Positions 1 through 24,463 of a stretch of 25,518 nucleotides of DNA are shown here, piece by piece. Where the stretch lies: IMG/VR virus record IMGVR_UViG_3300023184_000476, positions 1 to 25,518 of that record; one strand, written 5' to 3'. Position 1 is the stretch's first letter, and the number at the start of each line of letters is the position of its first letter. This DNA comes from a virus. Below the pieces are notes generated by a model, which worked only from the letters and a program-made list of their open reading frames with translations, searched no databases and was not told where the DNA came from. A program made the translations under genes and the position numbers.

Positions 1-1115
1 TAGCTGTATTGGGTGGAATTAGTGGTTCTGGAGGTAGTGGAGCAGGATTCCCATTCAGTGGATCTGCTGTAATAACTGGTAGTTTCTTAGTATCAGGATC
101 GTTTGCTGATTTTACAAGAGTAGCAAACTTTACAGGATCATTAACTGGTAGCTTATTAGGTACATCTTCATACGCTACAACAGCATCTTATGCTACAACG
201 TCTTCATTTGTAACATTAGCTCAAACAGCATCCTTTGTACAAAATGCACAAAGTGCTTCATATATTTTAAATGCAGTAAGTTCATCATTCGCTACAACAG
301 CATCTTATGCTACTACAGCATCATTCGTAACATTAGCTCAAACAGCATCCTTTGTACAAAATGCAGTAAGTTCATCATACGCTACAACAGCATCATATGC
401 ATTATTTGCTTTAACAGCATCTACAGCTCCAGGCTACACAGTACAATTTACACAAAGTGTAGCTGCCGCCACTTGGTCATTTAATCATAATATGAACACT
501 AGAAACCCTATTGTTCAGGTTTATGATTCAAGCTACAAACAAATTATTCCAAATGATATTATAGGTACAAGTGTTAATACAGCTGAAATTAGATTTGATT
601 ATGCAACTACAGGCTATGTAGTAATGAGTAATGGAGGTGGATTATATGTTACAGGATCTACTTCACTATTAAGCCAAACTTCAGCCGCTACAACTTGGTC
701 ATTTACTCATAATCTAAATTCAAAGTATGTAAACTTTGAAGTTTATGATTCAAATGATTATGTAATTATACCTGCAGGAATTAAAGTAATTGATACTAAC
801 AATGCTGAATTGTATTTTGCAGGCGCTACAGCAGGTAAAGCAGTAGCTAACTTTAGTGGTATAAATGGAGCTCCAAACGCTACAACAGCGTCTTACGCTT
901 TAACAGCAACAAGCGCTTCATACGCTTTAACAGCAACAAGTGCATCGTTTGCTTCAACAGCTTCATATTTAAACCCGATACAAAGCTCATATGTAATATT
1001 GTCTCAAGTATCAGCTAGTTTGAATTATGCAGACGATACAGCGGCGGCAGCAGGCGGAGTACCATTAGGTGGATTATACAGAAACGGAAACTTTATATTA
1101 ATAAGATTATCATAA
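1..1115 (+). CDS. Tail fibre/adhesin, 5'-truncated by window edge
   Basis: The frame is open from the first base and the only early start-like codon is a TTG at 9, so the gene most likely begins upstream of the window. After a Gly/Ser-rich segment with TGSL/SGS strings come Ala/Ser/Thr repeats (about 165-420) built on six- and nine-residue units ending in AS-F/Y. Two copies of a roughly 74-residue domain follow (about 435-650 and 655-865), each with a WSF-x-HN motif and a VYDS motif. A second short ASYALTATS repeat comes next. The C-terminus is a compact Gly-rich tail, GGVPLGGLYRNGNFILIRLS. This looks like a trimeric fibre with a repetitive shaft and tandem beta domains. No S74 domain is present, unlike the next three genes. 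The stop lies 1 base before the next start. The fibre role is inferred from composition and context; the receptor is unknown. Confidence 0.8.
   Translation, partial: AVLGGISGSGGSGAGFPFSGSAVITGSFLVSGSFADFTRVANFTGSLTGSLLGTSSYATTASYATTSSFVTLAQTASFVQNAQSASYILNAVSSSFATTASYATTASFVTLAQTASFVQNAVSSSYATTASYALFALTASTAPGYTVQFTQSVAAATWSFNHNMNTRNPIVQVYDSSYKQIIPNDIIGTSVNTAEIRFDYATTGYVVMSNGGGLYVTGSTSLLSQTSAATTWSFTHNLNSKYVNFEVYDSNDYVIIPAGIKVIDTNNAELYFAGATAGKAVANFSGINGAPNATTASYALTATSASYALTATSASFASTASYLNPIQSSYVILSQVSASLNYADDTAAAAGGVPLGGLYRNGNFILIRLS
165..420 (+). repeat. Nested direct repeats in fibre shaft
   Basis: A 39-base segment at 210-248 recurs exactly at 327-365, a 117-base offset. A second near-identical segment (273-310) recurs at 363-400. 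At protein level these encode six-residue (ATTASY type) and nine-residue (VTLAQTASF type) units with an aromatic residue at the end of each unit. The same nine-residue unit appears in the gene at 2402. The repeat is coding and in frame, so it most likely builds a fibrous shaft. Confidence 0.85.
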
Positions 1116-1116
1116 T

Positions 1117-2400
1117 ATGCCAATATCATTAACAGGCTCATTAAATTTATCAGGTTCAAACACCTTAATAGGAACCAAAACCATAACTGGTAGTGTGTTT
1201 ATTAGTGGATCTAAAACCATTATAGGTACTACTTCAATTACTGGATCTTTATTAGTAACAGGTAGTCTTAATACAGTAGGTACTATTACAGCAACAACAT
1301 TAGTTGTTCAAACTATTACTTCCAGTATTAGTTCAATTACAGGTTCTACAAATTTTGGATCATTATCTTCTGATACTCATAAGTTTACTGGTAGTTTAAA
1401 TGTAACTGGTGCTTTTTATGTTACTACAGGTAGTGTAGGTATTGGAACTGTTTCTCCATCACAAAAACTAGAGGTAGTAGGTGGTGAAATTAAAGCAGGT
1501 AGAGTTGATACAAATCAGGAAGGTGGACAAGTAAGTTTTGGTAGAGCATCAGACAACAATACTAGTTGGTATATTGATTTATATGGTAGTTCTACATCAC
1601 CACAACTTCGTTTTGTGGATGTTGACAACTCTGCTGTAAGAATGACTATGACAGGAAGTAATGTAGGTATAGGAGCTTCAATTCCAAGAAATACATTACA
1701 AATAGGAAATACAGTTGCATATGCTGGTAATTCATTAGCTATTAGTAATGGAACTATAGATTTTGCAGTCTATATGGATTCAACCTCTACTAATTTATAT
1801 TCTTATGGTAACTTTACATTTAATACTAATGCTGCAGGTACCGAAAGAATGCGTATCCAATCAGCGGGACAATTAACATTTGGCGAGGGAGCAGGAACAA
1901 TTACTTCTTATAAATTTAGATTTAATGGGAATGGTGCAGGAGATGTAATGGCTATTGTTGTAAATGGTGCAACTGCTTCTTCAACTTCTTATATATCATT
2001 TAGAACAGGAACAGGTGAAGGTTCATATAAAGCAGATATTCGTTATGAAACAGGTCAGTTAAGTTTAAATAATATTTCTGATGTTAGATTTAAGGAAAAC
2101 ATTATAGATGCTTCTACAAATGAACAATGGAATAAAGTTAAAAACTCTAAACTAAGAAAATTTGATTTTAAAGATAAAACTACAACTAATCAATTAGGAT
2201 TTATTGCCCAAGAATTATATCAAACAATACCAGAAGCTATTAGTAAAGGAGGTGATGAGGAAGAATTTAATGGTAATGAAAAAAGTATTTGGACAATAGC
2301 ATCTACAAATATGATACCAGCGATGTTTGGTGCATTACAAGAAGCAATGACTAAAATAGAAACATTAGAAGCACGCGTACAATACTTAGAAAACAAATAA
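1117..2400 (+). CDS. Tail fibre with C-terminal peptidase S74 chaperone domain
   Basis: This 427-aa protein begins with TGSL/ISGS-type repeats, then a segment with TLVVQTITSS and FTGS motifs shared with the proteins at 2402 and 5690. A VGIGTVSP motif follows, typical of S74 fibres. The C-terminal part from about residue 321 is an S74 intramolecular chaperone. It carries S-D-V-R-F-K with the expected Ser321/Lys326 dyad, then GFIAQEL, IPEAI and a terminal helix ending LENK. In characterised S74 proteins this domain trimerises the fibre and then cuts itself off just before the Ser. The start follows the previous stop by one base, with no Shine-Dalgarno. Its role as a host-binding tail fibre or spike is inferred from this architecture. 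Confidence 0.9.
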   Translation: MPISLTGSLNLSGSNTLIGTKTITGSVFISGSKTIIGTTSITGSLLVTGSLNTVGTITATTLVVQTITSSISSITGSTNFGSLSSDTHKFTGSLNVTGAFYVTTGSVGIGTVSPSQKLEVVGGEIKAGRVDTNQEGGQVSFGRASDNNTSWYIDLYGSSTSPQLRFVDVDNSAVRMTMTGSNVGIGASIPRNTLQIGNTVAYAGNSLAISNGTIDFAVYMDSTSTNLYSYGNFTFNTNAAGTERMRIQSAGQLTFGEGAGTITSYKFRFNGNGAGDVMAIVVNGATASSTSYISFRTGTGEGSYKADIRYETGQLSLNNISDVRFKENIIDASTNEQWNKVKNSKLRKFDFKDKTTTNQLGFIAQELYQTIPEAISKGGDEEEFNGNEKSIWTIASTNMIPAMFGALQEAMTKIETLEARVQYLENK

Positions 2401-2401
2401 T

Positions 2402-4057
2402 ATGATACTTAACTCACCCACTATATCAGGTTCACTAACAGTAACAGGCAATATAATTGCCTCAGGCAGCATAACGCTATCAGGCTCTGTTGCATCTGCA
2501 TCATATGCTGCTACAGCATCATTTGTTGCTTTAGCACAATCTGCATCGTATGTGCTTACAGCACAAACAGCATCGTTTGTGGCAAATGCACAAACAGCAT
2601 CATTTGTTGCTTTAGCACAATCTGCATCAAATGCAGTTTCTGCTGCAACAGCATCATTTGCGAATACATTTACTGTTGCTTCAACTTTAACGGCACAAAC
2701 GTTAGTAGTGCAAACGATTACTAGTTCGGTGGATTTTGTCACTGGTTCTACGCGATTTGGATCTATAGCTGCTAACACAATGCAAATAACTGGTTCAGTA
2801 AGTATCAGTGGTTCATCAACTGCGTTTGCAGTTAATAACAGTGCTTTTTTTATTAGTTCTAGTGGAAATATAGGAATAGGAACAACAATTTCAAATGCAG
2901 GAAGCTCAGTATCAGGTACAACCGTTGTAACAATAGCACCACAAAGTAGTGTAAGTGAAAGATGGGGTATTTTAGAACTAGCAGGTAATAGAACCTTAGG
3001 TGAAAACCAAGTAGGTGAAATTAAATTTACAAATATTAATACAACTAATAATGTTGTTGCAAGTATAAGTGGTAATAATACTACTACTGGAGTTACAGGT
3101 GGTTCTTTAAGTTTTTCAACCAAAACCGATGCTGGTTCTCTTACCGAAAGAATGCGTATTACACCTAGTGGTAGTGTAGGTATAGGAACAAGTGCTCCTA
3201 CAAGTACTTCAAGTTTTAATAAATTTTTAGAAATAAATGGTGGTTCTGTTAACTCTGCATTATGCTTATCAGGTTTAAATACAGCAGGACAAGGCACTAT
3301 TGGTTATGATAGTGGTAATTTATATATTGAAGCACTTGGAAACCCAACAGGAACAAATAATAATATATTATTTAGTACAACAAGCACAAATAGTAGTTCT
3401 ACTAGAATAGAAAGAATGCGTATTACAAGTGGGGGTAAAGTAGGAATCGGTGTCACCAATCCAAATTATTCTCTAACCGTAGCCGGATCAATACAAGCAG
3501 GCTATATTTTATTGGGAGATACCGGTAATGGTGTAAATAATACTATTGAAATGACTACTGGAACAAACTCTACCACTTATAGTGCTGGCCATATACAATA
3601 TTATTCAAATGGATATCTTACTATATGTTACGGAGGCGGTAATGTATATATAGGAGCTGCTAGTGGTGCATATAAATTAACATTGAATGGACAACCAGGC
3701 GCCAACGGATATACCGCTTGGACGAACTATTCAGATTCTAGATTAAAAGAAAATATTACAGATTTAGAAGCTAGTAATATATTAGACAAAATTTGTGCAA
3801 TAAGACCGGTAACATTTAATTACAACGAATTATCTGGATTTGATGAAACAACAAGATCTAGAAGAATATCAGGATTTATAGCTCAGGAATTAATGGAAAA
3901 ATTCCCTGATATGATTGGTACTATTAAATTAGATAATACAGAATACTACGATACTAACTTATCTAATTTAAACTTATATCTAGTAAAAGCAATCCAAGAA
4001 CAAAACTCACTAATAACATCTTTACAATCACGAATCGAAGCACTAGAAAATAAATAA
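2402..4057 (+). CDS. Tail fibre with peptidase S74 chaperone domain
   Basis: This 551-aa protein is a paralogue of its neighbours. The N-terminus has ISGSLTVTG-type repeats. About residues 30-90 hold nine-residue units such as ALAQSASYV that match the shaft repeat of the first gene. Then come TLVVQTITSS, repeated NIGIGT and SVGIGTSAP strings, and two ERMRIT-x-SG motifs. The S74 domain starts at S-D-S-R-L-K, giving the dyad Ser444/Lys449, followed by SGFIAQEL and a terminal helix ending ALENK. Self-cleavage before Ser444 would leave a mature fibre of about 443 aa. It sits one base after the previous stop. The varied middle region (about residues 120-440) is the probable receptor-binding part, but no specific fold is recognisable. 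Confidence 0.9.
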   Translation: MILNSPTISGSLTVTGNIIASGSITLSGSVASASYAATASFVALAQSASYVLTAQTASFVANAQTASFVALAQSASNAVSAATASFANTFTVASTLTAQTLVVQTITSSVDFVTGSTRFGSIAANTMQITGSVSISGSSTAFAVNNSAFFISSSGNIGIGTTISNAGSSVSGTTVVTIAPQSSVSERWGILELAGNRTLGENQVGEIKFTNINTTNNVVASISGNNTTTGVTGGSLSFSTKTDAGSLTERMRITPSGSVGIGTSAPTSTSSFNKFLEINGGSVNSALCLSGLNTAGQGTIGYDSGNLYIEALGNPTGTNNNILFSTTSTNSSSTRIERMRITSGGKVGIGVTNPNYSLTVAGSIQAGYILLGDTGNGVNNTIEMTTGTNSTTYSAGHIQYYSNGYLTICYGGGNVYIGAASGAYKLTLNGQPGANGYTAWTNYSDSRLKENITDLEASNILDKICAIRPVTFNYNELSGFDETTRSRRISGFIAQELMEKFPDMIGTIKLDNTEYYDTNLSNLNLYLVKAIQEQNSLITSLQSRIEALENK

Positions 4058-4062
4058 TTAAA

Positions 4063-5685
4063 ATGGTAATATATTCACCCTCAATAACAGGCTCATTAAG
4101 CATAAGCAGCTCAGGGGCTTTTAATAATGTTGGATCTGCTAACTTTACTGGATCTGTGTTTGTGACTGGTTCGTTAAACGTTAATAGTGGGTCTTTATTT
4201 GTTAGTTCAAGTGGTAATGTAGGTATAGGAAATTCATCTCCTTTATCTTTATTACAGATAGGAAGTACTTTTTCTGCTACTACTCAATCTACTTTATTAT
4301 TAACAACCCAAGCTTCAAATTATGATTCAATGGGTGTTGTTAATACTAATGAAATGTTTATTCAACCATATACTTATTTTCATATATTAAAAGGATACGC
4401 ATACACATCAGGATCTAGAAAAATGAATCCATTAGATGATGTAATGGTTGCAACCCAAAAAGACATTATTTTTTCTCCTGTAAGTAGTTCATTATTTACA
4501 ACAGGATCAGTTGGAATTGGAACAACAAGTCCTTTTGCTATTTTAACCTCAACAGCACCAACTGCTGGAGCAATAGGATTAGGAATTATAGGTAGACCTT
4601 CTGATGATTATGGCTTAATTACTTTTAGAAAAAATGATGGAACGACAACAGTACTTGAAATAGGAGGTAGTACATCTAGTGGATTTATTTTTAATAATTA
4701 TACTACTGCTTCTACTTCATTTGCTACAAATGCTGTTGTTAGAATGACTATTAGTGCTAGTGGACAGATAGGAATTGGAACTTCAACTCCACTTTCTACA
4801 ACTGCTTTAGATGTTGCTTTTGGAGGAGTTACTTTATCACTAGGAGCAGATAATAATGCATATACAAGAACAAATAACACTGAAAAAGTAACAAGAATAG
4901 CATCGGCTAATTATGTAAATGCAAATTTACCTATGACGATGATGCTTGCAGATTCATATTCTGGAAATCACGACTTAAAAATAGGTGGTGGAACATCTGC
5001 TTTATATGCATCAACTGCTATCTATTTTTTAACAGCGGCTGATACAACAACACTTACAGGTACTGAAAGGATGAAAATTATAAGTAATGGTCAAATAACA
5101 ATAAACCAAGCACCAACAACTTATGGTACACTATCAGTAAGAGGATATTCAGATTTTACTTACTCCGGTATAAATGTTTATGCAACTGGTAGTAGTAATA
5201 ATTTTTTAAGTCTTGCATTATTTTCTACAAAAGCAGTTATTGGAGCAGATTATGGAGCTGGAGGTGGATATGTTCCTGTAGTAATACAAACAAGTAATAC
5301 TGATAGACTTACAGTTGCTGTTAACGGAAGTATAGGAGCCCCTTCAGGTACAAACATATATAATGCCTCTGATGTTAGATTAAAACAAAATGTTACAACT
5401 ATTACAAATGGTTTATCTAAAATAAATGCTTTAAATCCTGTTAAATTTAACTGGATACATAATTTTGAACCTATTGAAAATGATAAAGATATGTTTGGTT
5501 TTATTGCTCAAGAAGTACAAAGTATAATTCCAGAAGCAGTAGAAAACTTTGGAGGAAATTCAATAACAGTAGGAGATACAGTAGTAGATAATCCATTAAG
5601 AGTAAATGAAAAATTTATTATACCAGTCCTAGTAAAAGCAATCCAAGAATTAACAGCACGCGTACAAGAACTAGAAAACAAATAA
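4063..5685 (+). CDS. Tail fibre with peptidase S74 chaperone domain
   Basis: This 540-aa fibre protein starts with a short ITGSLSISSSG-type N-terminus and lacks the TLVVQT segment found in three siblings. It has several VGIGN/VGIGTTSP units and ERMKI. The S74 domain begins S-D-V-R-L-K, with the dyad Ser436/Lys441, followed by NPVKFNW, FGFIAQEV, IIPEAV and a terminal helix ending QELENK. The end of the gene is close at the DNA level to the ends of the two preceding S74 genes, as expected for duplicated genes or exchanged chaperone modules. The leader before the ATG is short and A-rich. The trimeric, self-maturing tail fibre role is inferred from family knowledge. Confidence 0.9.
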   Translation: MVIYSPSITGSLSISSSGAFNNVGSANFTGSVFVTGSLNVNSGSLFVSSSGNVGIGNSSPLSLLQIGSTFSATTQSTLLLTTQASNYDSMGVVNTNEMFIQPYTYFHILKGYAYTSGSRKMNPLDDVMVATQKDIIFSPVSSSLFTTGSVGIGTTSPFAILTSTAPTAGAIGLGIIGRPSDDYGLITFRKNDGTTTVLEIGGSTSSGFIFNNYTTASTSFATNAVVRMTISASGQIGIGTSTPLSTTALDVAFGGVTLSLGADNNAYTRTNNTEKVTRIASANYVNANLPMTMMLADSYSGNHDLKIGGGTSALYASTAIYFLTAADTTTLTGTERMKIISNGQITINQAPTTYGTLSVRGYSDFTYSGINVYATGSSNNFLSLALFSTKAVIGADYGAGGGYVPVVIQTSNTDRLTVAVNGSIGAPSGTNIYNASDVRLKQNVTTITNGLSKINALNPVKFNWIHNFEPIENDKDMFGFIAQEVQSIIPEAVENFGGNSITVGDTVVDNPLRVNEKFIIPVLVKAIQELTARVQELENK

Positions 5686-5689
5686 TAAA

Positions 5690-7372
5690 ATGGTAATACA
5701 TAACGCAATACTAACAGGTTCAATATCAATGCAGGCACCCCCTGTAATATCAGGTTCCTTAACATTAACAGGTAGCATTAATGCTACAGGCGATATTACG
5801 GCATCAAGTGCTCGTTTTTCAAACATAATAACTGCACAAACGTTGGTTGTGCAAACTGTATCGTCATCTGTAACTTATAGTTCTGGATCGAATGTGTTTG
5901 GAAATGCTGCATCTAATACGCAGGTGTTTACTGGTAGTGTTTATATTACAGGTAGTGTTGGTATTTATCAACCAAATCCTTCCTCTTCTTTAGATGTAAG
6001 AGTATTAGGTGAATCCCCAGCTACAGGTAAAGTAGCTTTAATAGCAGGTACAGGTAATGGTGCAAATGATGTTTTTAGATGGTATGATGGAAATACACAA
6101 TTAGGTGTATTTAAAAACTCAGGTAATGTAGGTATTGGTACAGTTAGTCCTGCTTATGCATTAGATATAAATGGAGTATCAAAAAGTTCAGGATCAATAA
6201 TATCATCTAACAATTCTTCAGGAACACCCTCTACATCCAATACCTTATGGATGACAGAATCTACTACTAATACTAACTGGCAACTTTATATAGGAGGTTC
6301 TACAAACTCATTCCCTGGAGGTTTTAGTATTTTACAAAGTACTAACGCAAGAATGGTTATTGCTTCTGGTAGTGGTAATGTAGGTATAGGATTAACAAGT
6401 CCAGGGTCAATATTAGAAGTATCAAAAGATACAGACGGTGATACTCCAATATATTTTACAAATGGCTCTGGTGGTGCTAGCAATACAAACGCTAGTATTA
6501 CTTTAGAATTTAGATTAAGAAATGGTAGTGGTGGTAGTACAGGAGGGGTAAGATTAAGAGCAGGTAAAGAAACAGACCATCAGGGTGCTAACGTAAATGA
6601 CTACTTTGCTATTAGTACTACTAAGAGTGATGCTATGGCCGAAAGAATGCGTATTAGTGCCGCGGGTTATCTAAAACTAAAAACAGTATCATCAGTATTA
6701 ACTACTACTACTCATAGAATTGATGATTATCAATTAACCCAAGGAAGTACTATATTAGTATGTGGTAACGCAAACACTGCAGATACGATTAATGTAATTT
6801 CTGTTGATAATGCTGGTTTTAATGGAGCCGCTACAGGTGTAACTGTAGGAAAAAATAGTTCAACGTCTCGTTCTATAAATGCAGGTGGTACTGTTAATGC
6901 ATCAGGAGCTGACTATGCGGAGTATATGACTAAAGCAATAACGGATAACATTGCAAAAGGCGATATTGTAGGAATTAATTCACAGGGGTTATTAACAAAT
7001 ATATTTAATGATGCTATTTCATTTGTTGTAAAATCAACAGATCCATCTTATGTAGGGGGTGATGTTTGGGGAAGCACTGATATAATGGGTATCCCACCAG
7101 GTAATGAAGCAACACAAGAACAAAAAGATACTTATAATGCTAAATTAGAAACAGCAAGAGCAAAAGTAGATAGAATCGCATTTTCAGGTCAAGTACCTTG
7201 TAACGTAACTGGATCAAATGTAGGTGACTACATCATTCCAATACAATTAGAAAATGGTAAAATAGGCGGACAAGCAGTAACAAATCCAACATTTGATCAG
7301 TTTAAATCAGCTGTTGGTAAAGTATGGAAAATAATGAATGATGGTCGTGCTTGGATCAAAGTAATAAATTAA
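5690..7372 (+). CDS. Tail fibre with G2-like autoproteolytic C-terminal domain
   Basis: The first 330 or so of 560 residues match the other fibres: GSL/TGS repeats, TLVVQTVSSS, VGIGTVSP, VGIGLTSPG and ERMRIS. The C-terminus differs. There is no SDxRxK motif; instead ASGADYAEYM lies at about residues 404-413, followed by a segment with GDIVGIN and VPCNVTGSNVGDYI and a final WIKVIN. ADYAEY is characteristic of the Peptidase_G2 family of intramolecular chaperone domains (phi29 gp12 type), which also self-cleave. The assignment rests on this motif and on its position at the end of a fibre. A fibre array using two unrelated maturation modules is notable. After this gene the spacing widens to 18 bases with an A-rich leader. 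Confidence 0.8.
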   Translation: MVIHNAILTGSISMQAPPVISGSLTLTGSINATGDITASSARFSNIITAQTLVVQTVSSSVTYSSGSNVFGNAASNTQVFTGSVYITGSVGIYQPNPSSSLDVRVLGESPATGKVALIAGTGNGANDVFRWYDGNTQLGVFKNSGNVGIGTVSPAYALDINGVSKSSGSIISSNNSSGTPSTSNTLWMTESTTNTNWQLYIGGSTNSFPGGFSILQSTNARMVIASGSGNVGIGLTSPGSILEVSKDTDGDTPIYFTNGSGGASNTNASITLEFRLRNGSGGSTGGVRLRAGKETDHQGANVNDYFAISTTKSDAMAERMRISAAGYLKLKTVSSVLTTTTHRIDDYQLTQGSTILVCGNANTADTINVISVDNAGFNGAATGVTVGKNSSTSRSINAGGTVNASGADYAEYMTKAITDNIAKGDIVGINSQGLLTNIFNDAISFVVKSTDPSYVGGDVWGSTDIMGIPPGNEATQEQKDTYNAKLETARAKVDRIAFSGQVPCNVTGSNVGDYIIPIQLENGKIGGQAVTNPTFDQFKSAVGKVWKIMNDGRAWIKVIN

Positions 7373-8029: not shown

Positions 8030-9418
8030 ATGATAAGCAAGGTTTCAACACATACAGTAGTGGGGTTATTTCTCCCTCCTTATTTACCATCACCTTCTGT
8101 GTCACCAACACCTAGTGTAACTCTTACCCCCTTTTATACACCATCTGTAACTCCAACTGTTACCCCATCCATAACAATTACACCGTCATTAACGCCTACT
8201 CCTAGTATTACTGCTACTCCATCGTTAACAGCAACTCCATCGTTAACACCTAGCATAACGCCTACTCCATCGTTAACTCCAACACCAAGTTTAACACCAA
8301 CCCCTAGTCTTACTGCTACTCCATCGTTAACGCCTACTCCATCATTAACCCCTAGTATAACACCTACTCCATCGTTAACACCTAGTATAACGCCTACTCC
8401 ATCGTTAACTCCAACACCAAGTTTAACACCAACCCCTAGTATTACTGCTACTCCATCAATTACTCCAACACCTTCATTAACACCTTCAATTACTCCTACT
8501 CCAAGTATAACTCCTTCAATTACTTCTACTCCAAGTATAACGCCTACTCCATCATTAACACCATCTATAACTCCATCTATAACACCATCTATTACTGCTA
8601 CTCCATCGTTAACGCCTAGTATTACTATTACTCCTAGTATAACGCCTACTCCATCTATTACTCCAACACCATCACTTACTCCAACACCAAGTATTACTAG
8701 AACGCCTAGTATTACTGCTACTCCTTCATTAACGCCTAGTATTACTGTATCTCCAAGTCTTACGCCAACACCTAGTATTACAGCTACTCCATCGTTAACA
8801 GCAACTCCTTCATTAACACCTAGTGCTACCAGAACACCATCAATTACACCAACTCCATCAATTACACCAACTCCATCAATTACACCAAGTATAACGCCTA
8901 CTCCAAGTATTACTAGAACACCAAGTATAACCCCTACACCATCATTAACTCCTACTCCATCAATTACTAGAACACCTGACCCAAGTAGAACACCGGATCC
9001 TAGTAGAACACCAGATCCTAGTAGAACACCAGACCCAAGTAGAACACCAACACCAACCCCATCCACCTCTCCAATCCCACCAGGTTATAATATATCATGG
9101 GATTTTAGTAAAACCGGTGGAGGTGGAGGTATACTATCAATCTCAGTAAACTCAAGTCAAGTAGTATACCAAGCTTCAGGAACACACGCAAGCGGTAATT
9201 TTACAATTCAACCAGGGGATTATATCACATGCGATTTATATGGAACTAGTGGAAACTATTCGCAATCAGAATTGTACATATATCAAGGCTCAACATTATT
9301 AGATAGTTATGTTGGTTGTGATTTAAATGATAGCTCAGCTACACTACCTGCTAATTATCTTGGCGGAAATGGTTCAATAATAGCAATAGTAAGCAATGGA
9401 TTAGGTGGATGTCCGTAA
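8030..9418 (+). CDS. Pro/Ser/Thr-repeat protein with C-terminal globular domain
   Basis: This protein is 462 aa. After about 20 residues comes a region of roughly 300 residues made of [15 protein letters not shown]-type units, then about four copies of RTPDPS (from residue 314), then PTPTPSTSP. From about residue 352 a compact domain begins ([13 protein letters not shown], many beta-prone stretches, cysteines near the C-terminus, ending GGCP). The repeat would form an extended, stiff stalk that holds the C-terminal domain away from the particle. Codons for the repeat vary, so it is kept by selection on protein as well as by DNA duplication. It follows the previous gene by three bases. A possible surface stalk or adhesin is inferred; glycosylation of Ser/Thr is possible but not shown. 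Confidence 0.85.
8086..9062 (+). repeat. Coding Pro/Ser/Thr tandem repeat array
   Basis: Nearly 1 kb of in-frame repeats with units of 12-18 bases. Phrases such as cctactccatcgttaac and ccaagtataacgcc recur many times, with silent changes. A final subset (about 8969-9045) encodes RTPDPS units. The array is prone to length change by recombination or slippage. Confidence 0.9.
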
Positions 9419-12542: not shown

Positions 12543-13028
12543 ATGGCAGTATTAGACGCTAACGAAATCATGTTCACCGCTTTTGAACCTAAGGTTCAGA
12601 ACCGTTTCATGATGTATATTGATGGAATCCCAGCATACTTAATCAAGAGTGCAACAGCACCAGGATTTGAAGCAGGAGAAATCATCTTAGATCATATCAA
12701 CGTATACCGTAAAATTAAAGGTAAAGTACGTTGGAATGACATGACTTTAGGATTATACGATCCTGTAACTCCATCTGGTGCGCAAGCAGTAATGGAATGG
12801 GCTCGTTTAGCACACGAATCAGTAACTGGTCGTGATGGATATTCTGATTTCTACAAGAAAGACTTAACTTTAGATATTTTAGGCCCAGTAGGCGATATCG
12901 TTGGTGAGTGGATAGTTAAAGGTGCTTACGTAAAAACAGCTACATTCGGTGAATACGATTGGGCTAACGAAGCAGCAATTAACTTATCTGTTACAATCGC
13001 TATGGATTATTGCGTTCTAAACTTCTAA
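12543..13028 (+). CDS. gp19: Tail tube protein (T4 gp19-like)
   Basis: At 161 aa this is almost the length of T4 gp19 (163 aa). It begins MAVLDANEIMFTAFEPKVQNRFMMYIDGIPAYLIKS and continues APGFEAGEI, the IKGKVRWNDMTL strand, the DPVTPSGAQAVMEWARLAHE helix and a C-terminal MDYCVLNF. These are typical tail-tube features: an N-terminal beta hairpin, a central loop and an amphipathic helix in the hexameric ring. The product would stack as the inner tube through which DNA passes. It follows the sheath gene and is separated from the next unit by a clear terminator. Confidence 0.95.
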   Translation: MAVLDANEIMFTAFEPKVQNRFMMYIDGIPAYLIKSATAPGFEAGEIILDHINVYRKIKGKVRWNDMTLGLYDPVTPSGAQAVMEWARLAHESVTGRDGYSDFYKKDLTLDILGPVGDIVGEWIVKGAYVKTATFGEYDWANEAAINLSVTIAMDYCVLNF

Positions 13029-13052
13029 TTAAATTACATATTTCTTATATTG

Positions 13053-13084
13053 GCGTCTACCTTTTTGGTAGACGTCTTTTTTTT
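13053..13084 (+). terminator. Rho-independent terminator after tube gene
   Basis: CGTCTACC (13054-13061) pairs with GGTAGACG (13067-13074) around a TTTTT loop, with a possible G-T extension, and is followed by eight T (13077-13084). The stem is mostly GC-supported and perfect. It lies 25 bases after the tube stop. Confidence 0.85.
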
Positions 13085-13120: not shown

Positions 13121-13864
13121 ATGGCAGAATTTAAAATTCCAACCGAACAAGTTACATTACCCTCTAAAGGTTTATTGTACCCTAAAGAATCACCACTTGC
13201 TAAAGGTGAAATTGAAATGAAATACATGACAGCTAAGGAAGAAGATATTCTTACTAATGCTAACTATTTAAGAAATGGTACAGTAATTGATAAATTATTA
13301 CAATCCCTAATCATTACACCAATCGACTACAATGAATTATTAGTTGGTGATAAAAATGCAATTTTGATTGCAGCTCGTATTTTAGGTTATGGTAAAGATT
13401 ATACTGTAATGTTTAATAATACAGAATATACTGTTGATTTAACTACATTAACAGAGAAAAAAATTGATAACTCATTGTTTAAAGCTGGTATCAACGAATT
13501 TACATACACATTACCTAAATCTGAAAACACAGTTACATTTAAATTGTTATCACATGGTGATGAACAAAAAATCGATGCTGAAATTAAAGGTTTACAAAAA
13601 GTTAACCCAAATTCAGTACCTGAAGTAACAACAAGATTAAAGTATATGATCACATCAGTTAATGGTGACCGCGATCAAAAAAATATCCGCGATTTCATTG
13701 ACACATACTTATTAGCTCCAGATTCTAGAGCATTACGCCAATATTATAATAAAATCTCCCCAGACGTTGATATGAAGTTTATTCCTAATGACGAAAACTA
13801 TACAGGGGAGGGTATAGAGATTTCGATTGGACTTGACTTTTTTTGGCCTGACGCAGGAGTATAG
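13121..13864 (+). CDS. Tail assembly chaperone-like protein (G-type; T4 gp26-like)
   Basis: This 247-aa protein begins MAEFKIPTEQVTLPSKGLLYP, followed by GEIEMKYMTAKEEDILTNANY and a helical stretch, IDKLLQSLIITP. The C-terminal half has HGDEQKIDAEIKGLQK, a DFIDTYLLAPDSRAL helix and a terminal FFWPDAGV. LPSKG-LYP with the TAKEE motif is typical of T4-like phage baseplate or assembly proteins related to gp26. Its position between the tube and the tape measure is that of the first tail assembly chaperone in other long-tailed phages. The ORF ends just after a run of seven T at 13838, from which the next frame continues. The molecular function is inferred from family resemblance plus order, not shown directly. 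Confidence 0.7.
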   Translation: MAEFKIPTEQVTLPSKGLLYPKESPLAKGEIEMKYMTAKEEDILTNANYLRNGTVIDKLLQSLIITPIDYNELLVGDKNAILIAARILGYGKDYTVMFNNTEYTVDLTTLTEKKIDNSLFKAGINEFTYTLPKSENTVTFKLLSHGDEQKIDAEIKGLQKVNPNSVPEVTTRLKYMITSVNGDRDQKNIRDFIDTYLLAPDSRALRQYYNKISPDVDMKFIPNDENYTGEGIEISIGLDFFWPDAGV

Positions 13865-14120
13865 ATTATACTTATTTAACCAAATACACGAAATTGTATT
13901 TAATGGACAGGGTGGTTATGACTGGACTACTGTTTATGATATGCCTATTTGGTTACGTAAATTTACTTTTGAAACATTAAAGGAACATTACGAAAAGCAA
14001 GCCGAAGAAGCTAATAAACAGCAGAATATGCTTAAAAATACCAACAATAAGGACGTAGCACGTCCTAACATAGCACCCGGTAAACAACCGACATATACAG
14101 CAAAGGCGCCTAAAAAATAG
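13827..14120 (+). CDS. Frameshift-extension ORF (GT-type/gp51-like), likely not independently started
   Basis: This frame runs 97 codons and overlaps the previous gene by 38 bases in the +1 (= -2) phase. It has no ATG until 13941. Only TTG codons at 13827 and 13833 could start it, and the conserved-looking core (YRLYLFNQIHEIVFNGQGGYDW, then MPIWLRKFTF) lies before that ATG. An in-frame stop at 13815 limits it upstream. The simplest reading is that ribosomes change frame at the seven T (13838-13844). A +1 shift would give a fused product of 332 aa. A helical charged tail follows (LKEHYEKQAEEANKQQ), then a Lys/Pro-rich end. A weak TTG start or a one-base homopolymer error are alternatives. Confidence 0.65.
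   Translation: MDLTFFGLTQEYRLYLFNQIHEIVFNGQGGYDWTTVYDMPIWLRKFTFETLKEHYEKQAEEANKQQNMLKNTNNKDVARPNIAPGKQPTYTAKAPKK
13838..13844 (+). other. Candidate ribosomal frameshift site, seven T
   Basis: In the upstream frame the run reads TTT TTT T|GG. Shifting +1 at the second TTT or -2 over the run joins the upstream protein at ...LDFF to GLTQEYRL in the downstream frame. It lies 18 bases before the upstream stop (TAG at 13862-13864), as expected for frameshift sites of tail assembly chaperones. Confidence 0.55.
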
Positions 14121-14128
14121 GCGCTTTT
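14106..14128 (+). terminator. Probable terminator overlapping stop codon
   Basis: GCGCCTA (14106-14112) pairs with TAGGCGC (14118-14124) around five A, then four T. The stop codon TAG (14118-14120) of the upstream ORF is in the right arm. The U-tract is short, so it may be partial or serve mRNA processing. Confidence 0.6.
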
Positions 14129-14139
14129 GATATTTATAC
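14129..14139 (+). promoter_or_regulatory. ATATTTATA box before tape measure gene
   Basis: GATATTTATAC follows directly after the hairpin at 14106-14128 and lies 17 bases before the start at 14156. The same AT box occurs before the genes at 10768, 12543 and 17004. No TTG at the usual spacing is visible, so it could be a late promoter needing only a -10-like element, or chance in AT-rich DNA. Confidence 0.3.
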
Positions 14140-14155
14140 GGCGCAATATTAAACT

Positions 14156-16975
14156 ATGGCTGATAATAACGATAACATAAAGGACGTACAGAATAGCGAA
14201 AAACTATTAGACTTATCTAATCAAATTGTTGATTCTTTAAATCAAAGAAGAAAAATAATTAAAGATATTAAGGCTGATGAAGATTCATTTTTTACTACAA
14301 TAAAACAACAGCAAAAGTTATCTCAAGATATTACAGCTAATGCTGAAAAATATTTAGGTTATCAAATTAAATCTAAAGATTTAGATAAACAAATTAAAGC
14401 TAATAAAGACAACCAGAAAAAAACAGAACTTTCTTTTATTAAAGGAATTAATGGTCAAGATAGTTTATCTGTAAAATTAGAAAAACAAAGACAAGATGCT
14501 TTAAAAAAAGCATTTGATGTTAGAAAACAAATAAAAAGTACAACTGACTCTATTAATAAATTAGATGAAAAAAATCAAGATTTATTAATAGCAAAAGGTG
14601 AAGCTGAAAGAGATAATAATAGAAATTTAGTTAGAAATATTCAATCTCAAATTAGAGAGAATCAAAGAATAGCTAATAACAAAGAAAAGTATGTTAAAGT
14701 TTTAGAAACTCAATTTGACAAAGAAAAAAATATAGCTAAAACAGCTCGTGAAACTGTTGAAAATGGTAAAAAATTAGTAGAAGATCAAAAGAAAGAATTA
14801 GCTTTTTTACTTAAAAACTTTGAAATAAGAAAACGAATAGAACGCTCTACAGGTCTATTAGGAGGTCTTGCCAAGTCATTATCTAAAATACCAGGTATAG
14901 GAGCTTATCTTAGAGCAGATGATGCCATTGAAGAAATGGAAAAACTAGCTGCTAAAATTGAAGAGGCAGGAGGTAAATCAACTAGTTTTACAAATAGATT
15001 ACAAATTGGATTAAAAGGAGCTAGTGTACTTGCTAAAGGATTTATTGAAAATATTAAATCTCCAGAAGCTATTTTTACATTTTTAGGTAAAGCAATTATT
15101 AATGCTAATGAACAAATAGTTACTTTAGGTAAGTCATTAGGTGTTAGTAGTATTCAATCTAAAAATATAAGAGAAGAATTTGTAAAATATTCCGCTTATG
15201 CTGGTGATACTTTTGTTAATACAAATCGACTATTAAAATCTCAATCTGAATTATCTAATCAGTTAGGTATTGCAGTTCAATTTAGTAAAAAAGAAGCAGA
15301 AAATTTTGCTCGCTTAACTGAGTTAAGTGGCTTATCAGTAGATGAGGCTGGCAAATTAGCTAAAGCATCAGCTGCTGTAGGACAAGAAGTAGGAGATTAT
15401 ACAGACACTATTCGTGAGGCTGCTACTTACGCTCAACGAGCTACTAAAACTCACTTCAGTTCTAAACAAATATTACAAGACGTATCTAAATTAAGTGCAG
15501 GAATATTAGTTAAATTCCAGGGTAATCCTAAAGCATTAGCTGCAGCCGTAGTACAAGCTAAAGCATTAGGTACTAATTTAGAAACTATAGATAAAATTGG
15601 TGATTCATTATTAAATTGGGAATCATCAATTGAAAATGAACTTAAAGCAGAATTAATAACTGGTAAACAGTTAAATTTAGAAAAAGCTCGTTATGCTGCT
15701 TTAACAGGTGATCAATTAACATTAACTAAAGAAATAGCTAGTCAAGTTGGTACTTTGAATGATTTTGAGAATATGAATGTCATAGCTCAACAATCATTAG
15801 CTCAAGCATTTGGTTTAAGTAGAAGTGAGTTAGCTGATATGTTAATACAGCAAGAGGCTATAAACAAATACGGAGATGCAGCAGCTAAACTTAACAAAGA
15901 CCAAGTTAAAGATTTTGAAAAACAAAAAGAATCACGTAAAGGATTAACATTAAAAGAATACCTAAAAGAACAAGAACAACAAGTTACAATCCAGGATAAA
16001 TTTAATAATGCTATCTTAAAATTACAAGATTTAATAGGTAATATGGTAGCAGGTCCTTTAGGTGGATTTATTGATTCTTTAACTGATGGTTTAAGCATTA
16101 TAACTAAAATATTTGCAGGCTTTGCAAAAATAGCTTCTGCAGTTAAAGGACTTTTTGGAGATGGAATTGGAGAGGCTTTAGGTAAAACTGCTTCTATAGC
16201 AGCTATAGGAGGTATAGGATTATTAATGGCTCGTTCACTTACAAAAGGCACTATACTTAATCCAATGATTGTAAAAGATGCTAGTGCTGCTGGTGGTGGT
16301 GGAGGATTAGGAGATATGTTTGGTGGAGGTGGAGGATTAAAAGGAGGTGCAGGTAGAATTGGAAAAGCATTTAGCAAAGGTGGATTGAAAGGTGGTGGTA
16401 AAGCAATGAGTAGAATACTTAGCAAAACATTAAAAGGAAATGCTCTTACAGCTCTAGCAATGGGAGTTGGAGATGCTGCTATGAATATGGGTGAGGGAAA
16501 AGGTGTAGGTGAATCTTTAGGAAGAGCAGGAATTACAGGATTAGCATCATTACTTGGAGGAGGATTAGGATCACTTATAGCACCAGGAGCTGGAACTATA
16601 GGTGGAGGTATTGCAGGTGGTATGGCGGGTGATTGGTTAGGAGATAAAATTTTCGGTGAACAACAACAAGTACAAGACGGTATAGCATCATCAAGTCAAG
16701 GACCATTTACTGTTAGAAACAAATATGGTAAAACAGCAATAACAGCTAAAGGCGATAGTTTAGCAGTATCACCTAATATCAATAATGCATCATTAGATTT
16801 ATCACCAATGATAAACGCTATTAACGAAGTTAGAAACGCAGTATCTGCATTAGCTAATAAATCAACACCACAATTCGCATTACATGTAGATGGTAAACAT
16901 ATTGGTACAGCGGTTGGTAAACAAATGGAAACAGGTACATCGCAACTCCAATATACTGGTTACAAAATAGCATAA
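14156..16975 (+). CDS. Tail tape measure protein
   Basis: This 939-aa protein comes right after the chaperone-like pair, where tape measure genes lie. About the first 240 residues are charged, Lys/Glu/Gln-rich and helical, apt for coiled coils. A middle section has helical, Ala-rich stretches. Residues about 630-840 hold hydrophobic and Gly-rich segments (PLGGFIDSLTDGL, GGGGGLGDMFGG, LLGGGLGSLIAPGAGTIGGGIAGGMAG) resembling the membrane-active part of tape measures. The C-terminus ends in a small module, HVDGKHIGTAVGKQM. It would set tail length and move through the tube at injection. At roughly 0.15 nm per residue the tail would be near 140 nm, longer than T4; this is a rule-of-thumb estimate. 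Confidence 0.85.
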   Translation: MADNNDNIKDVQNSEKLLDLSNQIVDSLNQRRKIIKDIKADEDSFFTTIKQQQKLSQDITANAEKYLGYQIKSKDLDKQIKANKDNQKKTELSFIKGINGQDSLSVKLEKQRQDALKKAFDVRKQIKSTTDSINKLDEKNQDLLIAKGEAERDNNRNLVRNIQSQIRENQRIANNKEKYVKVLETQFDKEKNIAKTARETVENGKKLVEDQKKELAFLLKNFEIRKRIERSTGLLGGLAKSLSKIPGIGAYLRADDAIEEMEKLAAKIEEAGGKSTSFTNRLQIGLKGASVLAKGFIENIKSPEAIFTFLGKAIINANEQIVTLGKSLGVSSIQSKNIREEFVKYSAYAGDTFVNTNRLLKSQSELSNQLGIAVQFSKKEAENFARLTELSGLSVDEAGKLAKASAAVGQEVGDYTDTIREAATYAQRATKTHFSSKQILQDVSKLSAGILVKFQGNPKALAAAVVQAKALGTNLETIDKIGDSLLNWESSIENELKAELITGKQLNLEKARYAALTGDQLTLTKEIASQVGTLNDFENMNVIAQQSLAQAFGLSRSELADMLIQQEAINKYGDAAAKLNKDQVKDFEKQKESRKGLTLKEYLKEQEQQVTIQDKFNNAILKLQDLIGNMVAGPLGGFIDSLTDGLSIITKIFAGFAKIASAVKGLFGDGIGEALGKTASIAAIGGIGLLMARSLTKGTILNPMIVKDASAAGGGGGLGDMFGGGGGLKGGAGRIGKAFSKGGLKGGGKAMSRILSKTLKGNALTALAMGVGDAAMNMGEGKGVGESLGRAGITGLASLLGGGLGSLIAPGAGTIGGGIAGGMAGDWLGDKIFGEQQQVQDGIASSSQGPFTVRNKYGKTAITAKGDSLAVSPNINNASLDLSPMINAINEVRNAVSALANKSTPQFALHVDGKHIGTAVGKQMETGTSQLQYTGYKIA

Positions 16976-23176: not shown

Positions 23177-24463
23177 ATGTTTTACATCATTGAGAAATCA
23201 TCTCAACTACAACAATTAGACTTTGAGGATTGTTTTGTTAGGTTTATCCCTCTTAATAACAATTTTCATCCCGCACTTACTGAGTTAAGTTTGGTTTATG
23301 TTAGACCACTTAATAGTAAGAAGGGATACATACTGTGTTTAAATCATAACGAATCACTTTCATTAAATAAAGATGAAGTGTTTAATTGGTTAGATACTTT
23401 AGGTAGAATATGGGTATTAGATAAAAAACAATCATTACACTGGTATAACAATTCAGATAAATTATTCGACGTAAATTTCCTTGAACCTGTTGACATCAAA
23501 TCGTTAGACAACGCGTGCATCAGCTACTACTATAGCAAGCACAATACGTTGTCTAACGTTAACTGTTTAATTCCAATTAGTAAGCATTATGAAATGTGTG
23601 AGACGATATTCAACATGGCGTTGCCTATTATCAAACAATATACATTAAGCGACACAACGTTTCAATTTAATAATTTTCGCACAGCAAATGTGTTTTATAA
23701 TATCGAAATCAGCGGCATTAAGGTTGATAAAAACTGCTTTATTGAGCATTACCAGGGGAAGTTAACCAACCCTCAATTTAATTTATCTCGCAGCAAAATA
23801 TACACTCAATATAATTTATATACAACCACATCTCGCCCATCTAATACATTTAATAGCATTAATTTTGCAGCATTAAATAAAGATAATAGCGAACGTACGT
23901 GTTATCGTCCAGAAAACGATAAATTCATCGAATTAGATTTCCAGGGGTACCACCCACGATTAATTGGTGAGATGATTGGATTTAATTTTCCTAAAGATAA
24001 AAACACATATGATGTATTAGGTGAAGTATTAGGTGTATCACAGCAAGAAGCTAAAGAATTAACATTTAAACAGCTATATGGCGGTGTTTGGTCTGAATAT
24101 CAGAATAAACCATTTTTTAAAGATGTAGTTAGATACACAGATGATATGTGGGATACGTACCAATACGGAAAGCGTTTAGTGACCGAAAATAAAATATTTA
24201 TGCCTGACGCTAATATGACTAAATCAAAATTATTTAACTATATAGTTCAAAGTAAAGAAACATCAACCAATGTTGATTTACTAAAATTAGTATTTGATAA
24301 ATTAAAAGGTAAAAAAACAAAATTAGTATTATATACTTACGATGCGTTTTTGTTTGATTATAGCAATGAAGATAAAGGTTTAATCCAAGAAATAATAAAT
24401 ATATTGGATTATCCCGTTAATATTAAACAAGGTAAAACGTATCATGGTTTGGAGAAACTATAA
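23177..24463 (+). CDS. Family A DNA polymerase-like protein (palm domain)
   Basis: This 428-aa protein carries all three Pol I palm motifs in order. Motif A is ELDFQGYHPRLIG with Asp254. The O-helix is QQEAKELTFKQLYGG with Lys293, Phe297 and Tyr301. Motif C is YTYDAFLFD with Asp389. Both metal-binding Asp of Pol I are thus kept. Deviations are Gln289 at the usual Arg of the O-helix, and Tyr and Ala around Asp389 where HDE is normal. TTTSRPSNTFNSINFAALN stands where the family has its TGR-LSS-P-NLQNIP. There is no recognisable 3'-5' exonuclease, and the first 190 residues are unassigned. It is far shorter than Pol I. It may be a specialised or inactive polymerase. It has its own putative promoter. 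Confidence 0.75.
   Translation: MFYIIEKSSQLQQLDFEDCFVRFIPLNNNFHPALTELSLVYVRPLNSKKGYILCLNHNESLSLNKDEVFNWLDTLGRIWVLDKKQSLHWYNNSDKLFDVNFLEPVDIKSLDNACISYYYSKHNTLSNVNCLIPISKHYEMCETIFNMALPIIKQYTLSDTTFQFNNFRTANVFYNIEISGIKVDKNCFIEHYQGKLTNPQFNLSRSKIYTQYNLYTTTSRPSNTFNSINFAALNKDNSERTCYRPENDKFIELDFQGYHPRLIGEMIGFNFPKDKNTYDVLGEVLGVSQQEAKELTFKQLYGGVWSEYQNKPFFKDVVRYTDDMWDTYQYGKRLVTENKIFMPDANMTKSKLFNYIVQSKETSTNVDLLKLVFDKLKGKKTKLVLYTYDAFLFDYSNEDKGLIQEIINILDYPVNIKQGKTYHGLEKL

Follow-up and report, generated by a model that had tools for sequence, protein, structure and literature searches.

The window analyzed here is the whole of the 25,518-base IMG/VR record IMGVR_UViG_3300023184_000476, a complete record in itself, in which two overlapping open reading frames on the + strand lie between genes for a tail tube and a tape measure protein. 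ORF1 (positions 13121 to 13864) encodes a 247-aa protein that we read as a gp26-like baseplate-hub protein and the putative short form of a tail assembly chaperone (TAC-N), based on its match to phrog_150 (E = 2.8e-9), on the Pfam family PF12322, and on an AF2 model. ORF2 (the putative TAC-C) lies in the +1 frame on the same strand and, from its substitution pattern and a profile match, would form a C-terminal extension of 91 aa plus a stop codon past the proposed slip (13845 to 14120), beginning GLTQEYRLYLFNQIHEIVFNGQGGYDW and ending MPIWLRKF. The upstream neighbor is a gp19-like tail tube protein (12543 to 13028, +; phrog_4542, E = 3.2e-20), the downstream neighbor is a tape measure protein (14156 to 16975, +; phrog_167, E = 3.2e-14), and a tail sheath gene is likewise found in the neighborhood. 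The order of tail tube, overlapping ORF pair, and tape measure is shared with phages immuto, Mel-JY01, and SP-15. Two terminator-like hairpins on the + strand, one with a 10-pair stem and a run of eight T between the tail tube gene and ORF1 (13052 to 13084) and the other at the end of ORF2 (14101 to 14139), bracket the chaperone unit. A hairpin of −8 kcal/mol or lower, differing in sequence, occurs at the place equivalent to the upstream one in 65 of 126 nonredundant relatives, and SP-15 has an annotated terminator at the matching place.

Farther from the pair, positions 3 to 7372 of the window hold a run of tail-fiber-like ORFs rich in SGS/TASFA repeats, one of which (1117 to 2400) carries a C-terminal Peptidase_S74 chaperone domain. 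An ORF made of long repeats (8030 to 9418) has an open antisense frame (8134 to 9066), apparently a by-product of its repeats, and a 428-aa ORF (23177 to 24463) has stretches that, on visual inspection, resemble motifs of family A DNA polymerases, with no match in Pfam.

In frame 0, the 3′ end of ORF1 reads GGA CTT GAC TTT TTT TGG CCT GAC GCA GGA GTA TAG. The +1 frame is closed upstream by a TAG (13815 to 13817, +) and is open from 13818 to its own stop at 14118 to 14120, such that ORF2 overlaps ORF1 at a run of seven T (13838 to 13844) that belongs to the candidate slip core TTT TTT TGG (13838 to 13846, +). The stretch that follows (CCT GAC GCA GGA GTA; 13847 to 13861, +) encodes PDAGV in frame 0 and part of GLTQEY in the +1 frame. 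A preliminary description of this DNA had reported the overlap in the +1 (equivalently −2) phase, the upstream stop at 13815, the first ATG of ORF2 at 13941, TTG codons at 13827 and 13833, a T-run spanned by both ORFs, a +1 fusion of 332 aa, and a position between tail tube and tape measure; on rereading, the overlap is exact to the base, the remaining positions and the computed length of the fusion agree, and the two flanking profile matches bear out the location. The −1 frame is closed within a few codons by a TGA just past the T-run, so a −1 shift cannot join ORF1 and ORF2, and a canonical −1 frameshift (X_XXY_YYZ) was ruled out for the lineage of the window.

Several comparisons place the pair within the T4-like phages. 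Matches to PF12322 (T4_baseplate) are found in 14 of 24 members of the ORF1 family (best E = 2.2e-21), the ORF1 protein of the window itself scoring 20 bits, below the curated cut-off of 24.5. AF2 models were made of ORF1 and of a naturally fused gp51: in structure searches, the former (pLDDT 90) significantly matched baseplate hub assembly proteins of the T4-like kind, and the latter gave no solved-structure relatives. A PDB sequence search likewise returned no solved-structure relatives, and the highest probability among the PDB matches listed for the ORF1 fold was a weak one to the HK97 chaperone 2ob9 (E = 0.96, probability 0.38). The ORF1 profile aligns with cyanophage gp26 from end to end, through the FF residues (E = 5e-7), and the cyanophage gp26 profile in turn matches T4 gp51 over its N part (E = 2e-7). 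The ORF2 profile matches the downstream part of cyanophage gp51 (E = 3.4e-5), which matches the C terminus of T4 gp51 (E = 3e-9); compared directly by profile, ORF2 and T4 gp51 give a nonsignificant E of 0.32. By sequence, ORF1 is a relative of T4 gp26, and ORF2 appears to correspond to the last ~50 residues of T4 gp51 by transitive homology, through its cyanophage homologues only. Given that gp26-like and ORF2-like parts match its two ends, T4 gp51 appears to be a ready-made N+C protein.

The arrangement recurs widely. From viral contigs, a first scan retrieved 80 close relatives, and further scans together with annotated phages brought the number of readable ORF1 ends to 265. In 258 of these IMG/VR and phage relatives, the +1 frame runs on past the ORF1 stop for 150 nt or more without closing (five of the seven exceptions are cut by a contig end), and the −1 frame is comparably open in only 10 of the 265. 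Of the relatives in bacterial and archaeal genome bins, 14 were examined (33 to 63% identity), and all share this phase and have TTT TTT T; these bins bear names such as Flavobacteriales, Halobacteriovorax, WOR-3, and Methylococcaceae, with host assignments that are uncertain because binning may be wrong. The recurrence of phase and core in both sets indicates that the arrangement is not due to chance. The +1 phase is also present in Bacillus phage SP-15 (TTT TTT CAC), Listeria phage LIS04 (TTT TTT AGT), Rhodothermus phage RM378 (TTT TTT TGG AAT), and Streptococcus phage GXN1 (TTC TTT CGT). Seven window-type records of 126 to 222 kb each contain one ORF1 and one ORF2, and a second gp51-like copy was sought elsewhere in these seven genomes and not found.

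The site itself is frozen. Across 126 sequences with less than 85% nucleotide identity, synonymous codons are conserved only at codons 239 to 247 of ORF1, and excess conservation elsewhere is near zero: the peak five-codon window (codons 240 to 244) scores 0.88, versus a median of −0.02. Synonymous-site scores for codons 243 to 247 are mostly 0.8 to 0.97 (0.25 for codon 245), against an ORF1 mean near 0, and part of the constraint reflects dual coding past the slip, as expected. ORF2 also bears the mark of a translated frame, since its differences at positions 1, 2, and 3 of its own codons (10,383, 6,225, and 20,082) are distributed as in coding sequence. Among 263 sites, the slip core is TTT TTT TGG in 196, TTT CTT TGG in 41, TTC TTT TGG in 14, TTT CTA TGG in 4, and one of several rarer forms in 8. 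The preliminary description had proposed comparing homologues for a conserved T-run and phase; the phase is kept, as above, but all seven T are kept in only 198 of the 263.

From the conserved phase, the frozen site, the coding character of ORF2, the loss of the site where ORF2 has its own start, and the single copy of each part per genome, we consider it very probable that, close to the 3′ end of the gp26-like chaperone gene, a programmed +1 frameshift of the ribosome produces a minor 332-aa form beside the 247-aa form, so that the frameshift between two tail chaperone ORFs first suggested for this locus gains strong support from comparison. In the proposed mechanism, the P-site tRNA would sit on UUU (or CUU) with UGG (or the second YUU) waiting in the A site; this tRNA would let go and re-pair one base downstream on UUY (UUU to UUU in the window), and the ribosome would continue on GGC CUG ACN in the +1 frame. 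The short form would consist of the N domain and the long form of the N domain plus the ORF2 domain. If the pair works as lambda gpG/gpGT does, the tape measure protein would be coated by N domains, and the C domain would recruit tube subunits; a chaperone function for the two products is suggested by position, family, and this analogy.

The preliminary description had left open whether the shift is +1 or −2. A −2 shift, as reported for phage Mu (PMC5009743, PMC3498833), would yield the same fusion with one extra residue and has an identical phase, and the TTT TTT TGG core of the window allows the P-site re-pairing that it needs. We scored re-pairing for each site variant with assumed anticodons (GAA on UUY, GAG on CUU, and UAG on CUA): +1 re-pairing is allowed in all 263 variants and −2 re-pairing in 244. 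In the other 19 (14 with TTC TTT TGG and 5 with TTT CTA), −2 re-pairing is barred, +1 re-pairing is allowed, and the phase of ORF2 is unchanged; TTC TTT CGT of Streptococcus phage GXN1 behaves likewise. A −2 shift is, by these variants, improbable, and we infer from the re-pairing rules that the direction is +1. The shifting codon and the efficiency are inferred as well: the shift must occur at the second codon for TTC TTT and at the first for TTT CTA, and most sites permit either.

No strong stimulator was found among those checked (downstream structure, an A-site stop, a clearly rare A-site codon, and a nearby Shine-Dalgarno [SD] sequence). The A site in the window is UGG, and the SD-like GGGGAGG is distant, its end lying 27 nt before the first TTT. 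A downstream stem-loop was dropped as a stimulator because the folding there, with a mean z of about −0.5 to −0.6, is weak (values of −0.64 and −0.47, versus −1.33 and −1.45 in cyanophages, are uncorrected for relatedness). As for the slip codons, CUU_U is the proven +1 site of RF2 and UUU_U is reported to be much less shifty than CUU_U in an E. coli RF2 context (PMC5009743); influenza PA-X has its proven +1 site at UUU_C (PMC3498833).

Somewhat less probable still than a −2 shift is that ORF2 is a separate gene, started at TTG 13827 or 13833 or by reinitiation past the ORF1 stop, and released as a free, small gp51-like protein. Such TTG codons do exist in the window, and two relatives (L260 and L264) and phage Cygsa01 do have ORF2 as a separate ATG gene, from which it follows that fusion is not needed in every phage. 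Against a separate gene in the window lineage, 121 of 258 relatives (51 of 120 when nonredundant) have no ATG, GTG, or TTG in the +1 frame before the slip, and in L210 and L249 that frame stays closed until 20 nt ahead of the ORF1 stop; a separate start also leaves unexplained both the frozen TTT YTT TGG codons and the heptamer in the opposite, −1 phase in cyanophages. L260 and L264 form a nested pair within the +1 clade of the tree, with ORF2 in another frame and an ATG just past the ORF1 stop. Their cores are TTC TTG TAT and TTC CTT TGG CCA GAT, respectively, and L264 has kept FLWPD at the protein level but with altered codons. Judged from sequence, the two serve as a natural control in which the site is lost once ORF2 has its own start: homologues with a proper ATG, which the preliminary description had held to count against a frameshift, occur in the derived relatives L260 and L264, and the decay of the slip site there supports its role elsewhere. 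RNA polymerase slippage on the seven T, with ribosomes translating the edited mRNA, is hardly credible even with such a run in 198 of the 263 relatives, as the other 65 have runs of six or fewer (three or four in 61) and keep the phase.

Among the systems closest to the +1 frameshift proposed here is a pair in the cyanophages (Kyanoviridae), whose gp26 and short “gp51” are homologous overlapping ORFs with the same FF slip position. The cyanophage pair differs in its invariant T_TTT_TTC, its −1 phase, and its greater downstream RNA structure: in 79 of 80 cyanophage homologues, ORF2 is in the −1 frame at this heptamer, and the 80th is cut. The −1 phase also occurs in Desulfovibrio phage 7757, Atu_ph07, RAS14, and one 595-kb uncultured phage. 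The tree needs few changes of direction, although its deep branches are long and unsure. Synechococcus phage S-SCSM1 (L280, 3600 to 3750) belongs to the −1 clade of cyanophages and carries T_TTT_TTC, yet its ORF2 is in the +1 frame; either a real change or the misreading of one base in sequencing may account for this.

T4 itself has two divergent genes, with a pre-fused long gp51, whereas the window has one copy of each part, joined by the proposed frameshift. The preliminary description had suggested that the T4-like chaperone pair is gp26/gp51, an assignment that holds except that only the last part of gp51 is represented in ORF2; genes 26 and 51 of T4 are on opposite strands and are transcribed divergently, so T4 cannot use a frameshift of the window type. 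Vladimirov et al. 2022 (Virology 566:9) had already identified tail chaperones of the T4 type; as citing papers relate, some T4-like phages have both a short gene and a long gene in fused form.

Different phages are known to shift frame in their tail chaperone genes by −1, −2, or +1 (PMC5009743). Like frameshifted tail assembly chaperones, the window has overlapping ORFs between tube and tape measure and a conserved, apparently slippery site. The lambda gpG/gpGT (TAC-N/TAC-NC) system shifts −1 and the window lineage would shift +1; the proteins of the window belong to the T4 gp26 family, and neither their sequences nor the fold significantly match those of solved lambda-type chaperones. The site resembles CUU_UGA_C of RF2 (prfB) in having a P-site YUU followed by U and in its +1 re-pairing, but the A-site stop and the SD about 3 nt upstream that mark the RF2-type shift are lacking in the window. 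In influenza PA-X (UCC_UUU_CGU; PMC3498833), the tRNA-Phe in the P site slips +1 from UUU onto UUC, a move also possible in SP-15 and GXN1, although PA-X comes from a eukaryotic virus and an unrelated gene and has CGU in the A site. A +1 shift, in the same direction as here, is predicted in the tail chaperone gene of the archaeal myovirus HSTV-2, likened here by its description as cited in PMC5009743.

As judged from these comparisons, the pair in the window is real and is a +1 variant of a known device, the T4-like chaperone pair having already been published. It is possible, if somewhat doubtful, that YNN_UUU_YUU_UGG_CCU constitutes a minimal +1 signal, kept by phages with links to several bacterial phyla, with no need of a stop, close SD, or strong structure, and that one ancestral U-rich FF site was used in both directions before giving way to separate genes in T4 and in L260 and L264. 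For annotation, the pair offers a correction, as ORF2 is routinely called a hypothetical protein of 37 to 80 aa or is missed. In the isolated phage immuto (MW353175; TTT CTT TGG), the junction peptide would by itself distinguish the modes of shifting: GVSFFGLTPEYR for +1 at the first codon, GVSFLGLTPEYR for +1 at the second codon, and GVSFLFGLTPEYR for −2. Cyanophage gp51 was noted in 2010 as being without its first ~200 residues (PMC3037559); the overlap of the ORFs can account for this short gp51, which would be the last part of a longer, frameshifted protein. The range of tail chaperones with programmed frameshifting would grow to include a large and mostly uncultured set of T4-related phages, and the direction of the shift appears to differ between homologous gene pairs, +1 here and −1 in cyanophages.
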